A DNA stretch of 64,000 nucleotides. It comes from Jiella flava (GTDB taxonomy: Bacteria > Pseudomonadota > Alphaproteobacteria > Rhizobiales > Rhizobiaceae). The stretch is taken from positions 310,001 through 374,000 of the forward strand of contig NZ_JAFMPP010000001.1 of the NCBI RefSeq assembly GCF_017349315.1. The letters are read 5' to 3'. Shown here piece by piece: positions 49,409 to 52,384 of the stretch (its first letter is position 1; each line of letters opens with the position of its first letter). The notes under the pieces were generated by a model. The model ran no database searches, was not told where the DNA came from, and was given only the letters and a program-made list of their open reading frames with translations. Position numbers and translations under genes: made by a program.

Positions 49409-50239
49409 TCAGACCACGATTTGGCGGAGCGCTGCGTCCGGCGCCCGCCTCCCCCGCCACTGCTTTGGATAGCCAAAGGACACCTCTTCGAACCGCACCC
49501 CGTCGACCGTTCGGCTCGACGGCATATGGAGATGGCCGGAGACAACGACACTGGCCTTGAAGCGTCGATGCCAGTCCTGCGTCGCTTGCGTGCCACACCA
49601 CAGCGAGAAGCGCGGAATGCGGGGCGGCTTGGCCAGTTCCTCGCGCAGCGGCCAGTGGTTGACGAGAATGCGCGGCGCGTCCTCCTCGCCAAGCGCCAGA
49701 AGCCGCGCCTTTGTCTCTTCACAGCGCTGCCGGCACCAATCCGATCGGCTCTCATGGGGATGCGGCGACAAGAACTGCTCGTCGGCGCAGCGCACACCGG
49801 TTTCACGCGCCCAGGCCAAAGCGTCCTCAATCGCGATGTCCGGCGGACGAAAGCTATAATCATAAAGCAGAAACATCGGCACCAGGCGCGCCGCCCGTCC
49901 GTCGACGGCGATCAACGGATAGGGATCTTCCGGCGTCAGCACGCCATACTCCCGGCAGAGCGCGACAAAAGCCCGATAGCGCTCTTCGCCGCGCAGCGGC
50001 GGCGTATCGGCCGGATCGTCCCGCCCGGCGACGGCCCACAGTTCGTGATTGCCGGGCACCCAGACCAGTTGCCTGAACTTCGGGGCCAGGCTCTCAAAGG
50101 CGATTTGCAGATGCCGCTGCGTTTCGCCAACGTCGCCGGCCAAGATCAGCCAGTCGTCGGGGCGCGGCGCGATCTCGGCCAGCGCCTCGCGATTGGCGGG
50201 AAAGCCGAGATGCAGATCGGCGACAGCGAACAGTCTCAC
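49409..50239 (-). CDS. metallophosphoesterase, PptH-like, coupled to PPTase gene
   Basis: 276-residue calcineurin-type phosphoesterase. All metal motifs are present: VADLHLGF at the N-terminus, LAGDVGET, VPGNHELW, VNHWPL and VSGHLHMP. The middle region, YRAFVALCREYGVLTPEDPY and PMFLLYDYSFRPPD, looks like the family of mycobacterial PptH, which removes the 4'-phosphopantetheine arm from acyl carrier proteins. The start is a GTG at 50239 that overlaps the stop of the phosphopantetheinyl transferase gene (GTGA). The pairing with the enzyme that adds the arm strongly suggests, but does not prove, the reverse reaction. The alternative is a generic phosphodiesterase. Confidence 0.75.
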   Translation of the reverse strand: MRLFAVADLHLGFPANREALAEIAPRPDDWLILAGDVGETQRHLQIAFESLAPKFRQLVWVPGNHELWAVAGRDDPADTPPLRGEERYRAFVALCREYGVLTPEDPYPLIAVDGRAARLVPMFLLYDYSFRPPDIAIEDALAWARETGVRCADEQFLSPHPHESRSDWCRQRCEETKARLLALGEEDAPRILVNHWPLREELAKPPRIPRFSLWCGTQATQDWHRRFKASVVVSGHLHMPSSRTVDGVRFEEVSFGYPKQWRGRRAPDAALRQIVV

Positions 50240-51147
50240 GCCGACGGCGTCCCCGCGCCGGGCGCTGCGAGGCGCACGGCAGGCTCGGCGAACGCTTCGG
50301 GCTTGGCAACAAGCGGCCGCGCCTGCCAAAAGCAGACGCTCACAACGCCCGCCCCAGCCACCGCCATCGCCAGCGCCAGGCGGTGGCTCGCGCCGATCCG
50401 GCGCGCGAAAAACCGCCAGCGGCTCGGATCGTCCGGGCATGTCGGCTCGAAGCGGATCGTCGGCTCGCTCGCCGACACATCGTAGGCAAAGCCGTCGAGC
50501 GGCAAGGCGAGGCCCATGCCGCGCGCCTTGATATAGGCCTCCTTCAGCGTCCAGAAGGTGAAGAAGCGGTCGGTCAGTTCATCATCTTCGGCGGCATGGA
50601 CGAACGCCGTCTCGCTCGGTGCGAAATAGCGCGTGCACAGATCGGCCAAGCGCCCCTGACGGTCGATCCATTCGACATCGACGCCGAGGTCGCAGTTGCG
50701 GCCGATCGCCAGGGCGACGAGCCCCCGCGTGTGCGAGAGATTGAAGACAAGGCCAGGCGCCGCGTGCGCCTGATCCGGCGCGATTGCGGGCCGGCCGTAG
50801 CGATTGGCCTCGAACCGCCAGTCCGCCGGCGAACAATCGGCATGGCGCGACAGCGTGGTGCGAACCAGAGCCCGCCCGGTCAGATATTCCCGCCGTGCGC
50901 CCTCGACCTTGAACCGGTCGTAGCGCGCGCGCTCAGTTGAACTCAGGAGGCCCAGCCAGGCCAACGCGGTCTCACCGGTCGCAAGCGCAGGATCGGCGAG
51001 ATAGACGTCGACCCGGTCGCGATCGCTCGCGCAGCCGTTGGTCGGGCAGCTATCATTGGCAACGGATTGGGTCACGGCGCTTTGAAATTCGACGGTCGAC
51101 AAAGACGGCGGGCGGCGCTCCGCCGCTTGCGCATCGCAGTCGGACAT
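50236..51147 (-). CDS. 4'-phosphopantetheinyl transferase, Sfp type
   Basis: 303-residue transferase that moves the phosphopantetheine arm from coenzyme A to a serine on acyl or peptidyl carrier proteins. Diagnostic motifs: FNLSHTRGLVALAIGR, the magnesium site LGVDVEWIDR, and FFTFWTLKEAYIKARGMGLA. The N-terminal half has the pseudo-duplicate with LSSTERARYDRFKVEGARRE and YLTGRALVRTTLSRHA. The first 45 residues (from MSDCDAQAAERR) are unlike the family and have no good ribosome site, so the true start may lie nearer VDVYLADP. It is translationally coupled to the metallophosphoesterase. No polyketide or peptide synthase genes are in the window. Confidence 0.88.
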   Translation of the reverse strand: MSDCDAQAAERRPPSLSTVEFQSAVTQSVANDSCPTNGCASDRDRVDVYLADPALATGETALAWLGLLSSTERARYDRFKVEGARREYLTGRALVRTTLSRHADCSPADWRFEANRYGRPAIAPDQAHAAPGLVFNLSHTRGLVALAIGRNCDLGVDVEWIDRQGRLADLCTRYFAPSETAFVHAAEDDELTDRFFTFWTLKEAYIKARGMGLALPLDGFAYDVSASEPTIRFEPTCPDDPSRWRFFARRIGASHRLALAMAVAGAGVVSVCFWQARPLVAKPEAFAEPAVRLAAPGAGTPSA

Positions 51148-51207: not shown

Positions 51208-52215
51208 TCAGCCGACGGCGACAGGCATCGAGAGCGACCAGAGCCCCGAAAAGATCAACCCGAAAAAGATGATCCAGCCGAACACCGTGTTCGACTTGAA
51301 CAGCGCCAGACATTGGTCCGGATCGTCGATGTCGAGGCTGGAGATTTGCCAGATCATCTGTACCGCGCCGATCACCAAAGCGATATAGGCCGGCCACGAG
51401 GGCCCGCCGGCCGGGGTCATCCCCGCCGCCGCAAAGGCCGCGAAGAACAGAATGATCGTGCCGAGATAAAGAACGGACAAGGCCTCGCGCGTGCGGCTGC
51501 CGAACAGCCGGGCGGTGGAGCGCACCCCGACCAGCGCATCGTCTTCCTTGTCCTGATGGGCGTAGATCGTATCGTAGCCGATGGTCCAGAGGATCGCACC
51601 GGCATATAAAAGCAGCGGCGCCAAGGTGAGCGAGCCGCGATCGGCGGCCCAGCCCATCAGCGCGCCCCAGGAAAAGGCGAGCCCCAGACCGAGCTGCGGC
51701 CAATCGGTGACGCGCTTGAGAAAGGGATAGATCGCCACCGTCGCCAGCGACGCGATGCCGAGCAGCACAGCGAACAAATTGAACTGGATCAGCACGATGA
51801 AGCCGACCAGCGCCTGGGCCACCAGGAAGAGCTTCGCCTGGAGGCGGGTGACGCGGCCAGACGGCAACGGCCGTGAGCGGGTGCGGGCGACCTTGTCGTC
51901 GATCTTCTGATCAACCAAATCATTATAGGTGCAGCCAGCGCCGCGCATGGCGATCGAGCCGACCAGAAACAGGAAGAGGTGCCAGAGGCTCGGCAGTCCC
52001 GTGTGGATCGCACTCGGCGCCACCGCCTGCGGCGCCAGCGCCGCCGACCACCAGCACGGCCACAACAAGAGTTGCCAGCCGATCGGCCGGTCCCACCGCG
52101 CGAGCTGCGCATAGGGCCAGATCGCCCTGGGCAACAACCGATAGACCCAATTGTAGAGGGCTGCATCGGAAACCCGATCGGTCGGTTCGGCCAGACTGGT
52201 TTTCAGATTCGTCAT
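51208..52215 (-). CDS. ubiA: 4-hydroxybenzoate polyprenyltransferase
   Basis: 335-residue integral membrane prenyltransferase of ubiquinone synthesis. The two aspartate-rich prenyl-diphosphate motifs are GCTYNDLVDQKIDDKVAR and YDTIYAHQDKEDD. RWDRPIGWQLLLWPCWWSAA and RSRPLPSGRVT are UbiA signatures. About eight helices are seen. The chosen ATG at 52215 lies two codons inside a GTG; neither has a strong ribosome site. The gene is divergent from purD across 169 bp and 60 bp after the PPTase start, same strand. Confidence 0.94.
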   Translation of the reverse strand: MTNLKTSLAEPTDRVSDAALYNWVYRLLPRAIWPYAQLARWDRPIGWQLLLWPCWWSAALAPQAVAPSAIHTGLPSLWHLFLFLVGSIAMRGAGCTYNDLVDQKIDDKVARTRSRPLPSGRVTRLQAKLFLVAQALVGFIVLIQFNLFAVLLGIASLATVAIYPFLKRVTDWPQLGLGLAFSWGALMGWAADRGSLTLAPLLLYAGAILWTIGYDTIYAHQDKEDDALVGVRSTARLFGSRTREALSVLYLGTIILFFAAFAAAGMTPAGGPSWPAYIALVIGAVQMIWQISSLDIDDPDQCLALFKSNTVFGWIIFFGLIFSGLWSLSMPVAVG

Positions 52216-52384
52216 GGCCACACAGTGAGTGCATCAATGCTCCAGTCAAGTGAAAAACTGTATCAATCGTGTCTTTCCGCCGATTTCCTTCGATTTGCCT
52301 GGCTTGACCTTCCCATATGAAGCCCCGTATCGCCTCCCCGACGAACGAAATCTCGACGACAACTCACCACGCGGACGATTGCGC

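Follow-up and report, generated by a model that had tools for sequence, protein, structure and literature searches.

Phosphopantetheinyl (Ppt) hydrolase activity was first seen in 1967, and its function is not known, according to the accessible part of a 2021 paper (PMC8557913). The same text reports that PptH of Mycobacterium tuberculosis acts on more than a single holo carrier protein, those of other organisms included, to release Ppt, and that it also strips bulky S-modified (biotin-PEG) Ppt arms loaded by Sfp. There, PptH (Rv2795c) and the phosphopantetheinyl transferase (PPTase) PptT (Rv2794c) have neighbouring gene numbers, M. tuberculosis also has AcpS, and PptH appears limited to mycobacteria. 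AcpH of E. coli (PF04336) performs the same reaction with no kinship to PptH in sequence or fold, as far as the available text goes (PMC8557913). In Streptomyces, a PPTase of the SCO6673 type overlaps a calcineurin-like gene in most genomes sequenced by 2014, and the partner was left as a protein of unknown function in the portion of that report at hand (PMC3909215). Among open-licence articles, no title or abstract was found that deals with PptH in non-mycobacteria or describes Aurantimonas-like bacteria that have lost AcpS. Why bacteria keep an eraser of an essential modification is the question addressed by the gene pair described here.

The pair lies in the window, the 64,000-nucleotide stretch of Jiella flava DNA analysed in this study. 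As in M. tuberculosis, the hydrolase and PPTase genes adjoin, and the window hydrolase is 47% identical to Rv2795c, sharing its fold and ligand positions. In contrast to PptT, the window PPTase is nearest to Sfp and its gene comes first; moreover, no AcpS was found in the window genome. The Streptomyces loci examined likewise carry a PptH-like phosphoesterase, whereas their gene order is the reverse of that in the window and the one PPTase tested (L078) is PptT-type, so the partner of pptH varies by lineage. Compared to Sfp- and HetI-type PPTases, both of which it matches, the window PPTase differs in that its gene overlaps pptH.

We propose, with a probability of about 0.83, that the pair is a writer and an eraser of carrier-protein phosphopantetheine, the writer being the only one of the cell. 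The proposal draws on homology, predicted fold, ligand positions, the gene overlap, its conservation and the lack of an AcpS or AcpH match, the reaction itself being predicted. The Sfp-type PPTase would transfer 4'-phosphopantetheine from CoA to the carrier-protein serine, and the PptH-type phosphodiesterase would hydrolyse the Ppt-serine bond to give back the apo carrier protein; we infer the same reaction and substrates for the window hydrolase as for its mycobacterial relative. Ribosomes finishing the PPTase may re-start on the hydrolase at the GTGA, and the eraser would therefore be made wherever the writer is made. With what appears to be the sole writer together with an eraser in one overlapping pair, the question of why the eraser is kept becomes testable without interference from a second PPTase.

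The gene pair and the identity of the phosphoesterase

The PPTase gene (50236..51147, minus strand) encodes 303 residues from an ATG at 51147 and ends in TGA; its start is uncertain because the stretch before about residue 44 varies among relatives, and the true start may be further downstream. The gene of the PptH-type metallophosphoesterase, a predicted phosphopantetheinyl hydrolase (49409..50239, minus strand; 276 residues, GTG start), overlaps it through a shared start/stop GTGA (50236..50239, minus strand), where translational coupling, including a fixed ratio of the two enzymes, may operate. A UbiA prenyltransferase gene (51208..52221) on the same strand ends about 60 nt ahead of the PPTase ATG and is possibly the first gene of one transcript with the pair. 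Pfam assigns Metallophos (E 1.7e-14) to the phosphoesterase, and ACPS (E 5.5e-16) plus AASDHPPT_N to the PPTase.

Sequence search against the PDB gave one strong relative of the phosphoesterase, 6unc (E 5.8e-71, 242 bits), in an alignment that spans almost the whole length; the only other matches at E ≤ 10 were two PhzD entries with E of about 0.2. The Foldseek title identifies 6unc as PptH of M. tuberculosis. An AlphaFold2 model of the phosphoesterase (pLDDT 93.3) matches 6unc with a TM-score of 0.91, and the remaining rows among the 50 listed have a query TM of at most 0.51. With TM values no higher than 0.52, general phosphoesterases of the kind of Rv0805 and LpxH were ruled out. An AcpH identity was also ruled out, as PF04336 matched nothing in 61 genomes; in the controls of this search, E. 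coli alone of 14 gave a match. In NCBIfam, all matches fell below the cut-offs, which counts against the proposal.

In an alignment of 43 sequences, the window protein and 42 others that are 48-82% identical to it, the residues D8, H10, D36, N64, H65, H195, H236 and H238, which we take to be the expected ligands of a binuclear metal site, are invariant. H236, the first histidine of GHLH, aligns with His249 of the 6unc chain, which would be His246 of PptH given a three-residue tag (313 versus 310 residues); the His246 to Asn mutant of PptH is inactive in the accessible part of the 2021 paper (PMC8557913). A quickly built tree without an outgroup family, in which 30 of 92 inner branches are open and L113 and L114 were left out, places 6unc among actinobacterial rows (99*) and the window protein with Aurantimonas and Fulvimarina.

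Altogether, the phosphoesterase is PptH-like. The preliminary description had guessed this family, and sequence and fold now agree with it; the GTGA overlap of two minus-strand genes lies where it had been read, and all PPTase and metallophosphoesterase motifs that it quoted were found, in line with Pfam.

Conservation of the pair and loss of acpS

In all 17 clade genomes the PPTase gene lies directly against pptH, and 16 of them have the GTGA with an identical GTG start. The seventeenth, Fulvimarina manganoxydans, has TGATG instead, a one-base overlap read from the printed context. In all 16 members with GTGA, pptH begins with GTG and not once with ATG; GTG may be a weak start that limits the eraser relative to the writer. 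When the window was set against genomes of the same genus, three comparisons gave dN/dS values of 0.11-0.16 (phosphoesterase) and 0.24-0.30 (PPTase), and both genes are under purifying selection.

Full-length PptH is present in 11 of 61 near genomes: nine of the ten of the same genus, including the window's own, two of the 27 in the rest of the family, and none of the 24 from other families of the order. The conservation across Hyphomicrobiales that the preliminary description had put forward as a check thus holds for near relatives and fails order-wide, 50 of the 61 being without a full-length PptH. Its idea of reversible carrier-protein activation in this order, as a predicted activity, is supported by the PptH sequence and fold and by the conservation in the clade. 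The near genome G028 encodes a 29% identical phosphoesterase that retains YDYSF and GYPK; this protein (29-33% identity) is a distant relative from a sister family and was left out as a PptH member, and BLAST of its 1.5 kb flanks gave no PPTase.

The nearest solved structure of the window PPTase is Sfp (1qr0, E 4e-20), and the HetI model scored 116 bits where its cut-off is 370. It has the ACPS domain with the motifs GVDVE and WxxKEA and is about twice as long as AcpS; from these sequence features, it is a predicted Sfp-type PPTase. The preliminary reader could not see that no PPTase besides this paired enzyme was found in the genome: in the 4.16 Mb window genome (reported as 99.99% complete) it is the single PF01648 match, whereas TIGR00516 (AcpS) matched nothing, the paired PPTase included. 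Both models match in the positive controls E. coli, B. subtilis and Caulobacter.

The near relatives show the same picture. In each of the 11 near genomes with full-length PptH, the sole PF01648 match is at the pair, and AcpS was found in 0 of these 11 versus 46 of the 50 without PptH, a pattern that may go back to one loss event. Four near genomes are without both AcpS and PptH (G008, G010, G044 and G052); in G008, of the same genus, neither a PPTase nor PptH was found, perhaps owing to an assembly gap, and G010 (85% complete) has one Sfp-like PPTase. Among six Aurantimonas and Fulvimarina genomes, five (L017-L021) have one PF01648 match, at the pair, and A. aggregata (L016) has a second one; none of these matches sits in an AcpS-sized frame, the frame sizes being suggestive of AcpS absence.

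The former place of acpS can be recognized from genes that we take, by their sequences, to be rpoZ, rsh, lepB, rnc and era. We used lepB-rnc-era as the marker because the pdxJ surroundings in the window genome share nothing with acpS loci, which made pdxJ unusable. In G028, G012 and G034, acpS stands directly ahead of lepB-rnc-era. The same gene order is intact in the window genome, G035 and G030, where nothing matches acpS; these three genomes, like G028 and G012, also keep rsh and the rpoZ-like gene farther upstream. In the window genome, lepB lies about 100 nt from the short ORF before it, an ORF that matches the one preceding acpS in G028 and G034. The acpS gene has been lost in the window lineage, and because of this loss the pair should control every carrier protein that the cell makes. 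The empty place ahead of lepB spans about 4565-4659 of L106 on contig C49 of the window genome.

PptH and AcpS across Alphaproteobacteria and the role of the eraser

In a sample of 385 alphaproteobacterial genomes, PptH (E ≤ 1e-30) was found in 12 and AcpS in 349. Six of the 12 have PptH together with AcpS (G159, G167, G235, G331, G424 and G440), and six have PptH without AcpS (G000, G195, G219, G272, G296 and G362), among which G296 and G362 are absent from the AcpS matches and have a single, Sfp-like PF01648 match. The six without AcpS contain exactly one PPTase each, within 3.5 kb of pptH; among the six with AcpS, only G159 and G424 have a PPTase within that distance. This gives a PPTase within 3.5 kb of pptH in eight of the 12 genomes, versus 0.045 expected by chance, and none in the other four.

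The eraser could serve turnover or the clearing of wrongly loaded Ppt arms. Simple turnover or homeostasis, in which PptH would reduce the holo form of carrier proteins or set Ppt free at CoA or carbon shortage with no editing, is a reasonable contender, though short of even odds. It suits an eraser that is co-made with its writer, and Ppt turnover from holo-ACP rises at low CoA in work cited by the 2021 paper; by contrast, mycobacterial PptH had no role in CoA salvage, in the part of that paper accessible to us (PMC8557913).

Editing is a refinement of the writer/eraser proposal that concerns the role of the eraser, and we hold it tentatively, as somewhat less probable than turnover: a relaxed Sfp-type PPTase that took the place of AcpS would also load acyl- or damaged CoA, and PptH would strip the blocked arms for re-priming. 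The removal of Sfp-loaded biotin-PEG-modified Ppt by M. tuberculosis PptH speaks for it, within the available text (PMC8557913). So does the distribution of AcpS, which is missing in 6/12 genomes with PptH versus 30/373 without (Fisher p 3e-4), and in 6/11 versus 18/304 among good-quality genomes (p 4e-5); both tests ignore kinship, and the genomes are not independent, as G195 and G296 share one genus and G272 and G362 another. However, half of the 12 PptH genomes carry both PptH and AcpS, the 30 genomes have neither, and G010 combines one Sfp-like PPTase with no AcpS and no PptH match. A strict rule likewise has these six and these 30 genomes against it. G378 belongs to the same genus as G195 and G296; AcpS was found in it and PptH was not. 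G272 and G362 (L117 and L118) are one-contig genomes of 1.5 Mb in which 3 kb lie between PptH and the sole PPTase and no AcpS was found; G440, of the same genus and 5.6 Mb in size, has both PptH and AcpS.

Going further, we regard it as speculative that editing or resetting by a co-made PptH makes the loss of AcpS and the take-over by an Sfp-type enzyme workable, that one pair thereby runs a whole-cell write/erase cycle, and that PptH and a PPTase were brought together on several occasions in different bacterial phyla.

Spread and gene arrangements of PptH relatives

PptH relatives reach beyond mycobacteria, under record titles of many phyla. Scanning of genome_contigs revealed at least 568 relatives, the best 80 of which were retained as named loci. 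The record titles include alpha- and deltaproteobacteria, myxobacteria, Acidobacteria, Gemmatimonadetes, Planctomycetes, Latescibacterota and SAR324, in addition to titles that we take to be other proteobacteria and actinobacteria; the phylum names are those of the records, many of which are metagenome bins. L038, titled 'Comamonas', sits among Myxococcus rows in the tree and is probably mislabelled.

A PPTase lies within 6 kb of pptH at 32 of the best 80 of at least 568 loci: in 13 cases it is upstream in the same orientation (Jiella, Aurantimonas and Fulvimarina account for nine of these), in 12 it is downstream in the same orientation, and in seven it is on the opposite strand. It is not the immediate neighbour at L034 (4.5 kb) and L064 (2.4 kb), two of the 32. 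Among 11 loci tested that have pptH ahead of the PPTase gene, seven show a candidate ATG or GTG in a 4-nt overlap with the pptH stop. At least 19 changes of arrangement occur on the tree, a rough count in which 'none' and contig ends were treated as a state. Moreover, in one open frame of Streptomyces sp. CNH099 (L092:5341-7620) an Ala/Pro-rich link joins a PptH domain to a PPTase domain, which is of the same kind as the PPTase beside pptH in other Streptomyces; a sequencing error may lie behind the single frame. The wide spread, the three arrangements and the fused frame argue that the writer and eraser activities belong together.

At the other 48 of these 80 best loci, the search for a PPTase, which reached 6 kb out or as far as the contig went, gave none, and on one side 11 of these loci have less than 1 kb; some PPTases may have been missed, because they were sought by a motif scan and by HMMs made from these same loci. 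As the gene caller overlooked pptH at 23 of the 80, the neighbour scan was confined to 20 of the 48, where one neighbour each was scanned and none is a PPTase. Four kinds of neighbour occur twice: a sulfotransferase (L063 and L073), a polyketide cyclase (L054 and L066) and a trypsin (L058 and L090), each in close tree neighbours, and a response regulator (L025, below the cut-off, and L074). PptH may have partners other than a PPTase at such loci.

Metallophosphoesterases with a similar fold can have differing substrates. The phosphoesterase might thus cleave another phosphodiester, for example a nucleotide or a CoA fragment, and stand beside the PPTase for other reasons, as the functional breadth of the superfamily and the 48 loci would allow; we consider this improbable, since a PPTase stands beside pptH repeatedly, in three arrangements and once in a fused frame, and PptH is by far the nearest solved fold among the 50 matches listed. 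Against the writer/eraser proposal itself count this diversity of substrates, the 48 loci, the four alphaproteobacterial genomes with no PPTase within 3.5 kb and the 50 near genomes in which full-length PptH is missing.

Viral spread of PptH was considered and rejected, the viral_contigs search giving one weak partial match (31% over 69 residues). A PptH relative is carried by 33 plasmid records; in four that were inspected, an overlapping PPTase is annotated in two and not in the other two. PF01648 matches were counted in 20 named PptH genomes, namely the six of Aurantimonas and Fulvimarina and 14 others. Ten of the 14 have two to five matches, and four have one (L031 Polyangium, L071 Magnetospirillum sulfuroxidans, L080 Halopolyspora and L065 Rhodospira); this sole match is away from pptH in L065 and at the pair in L031, L071 and L080.
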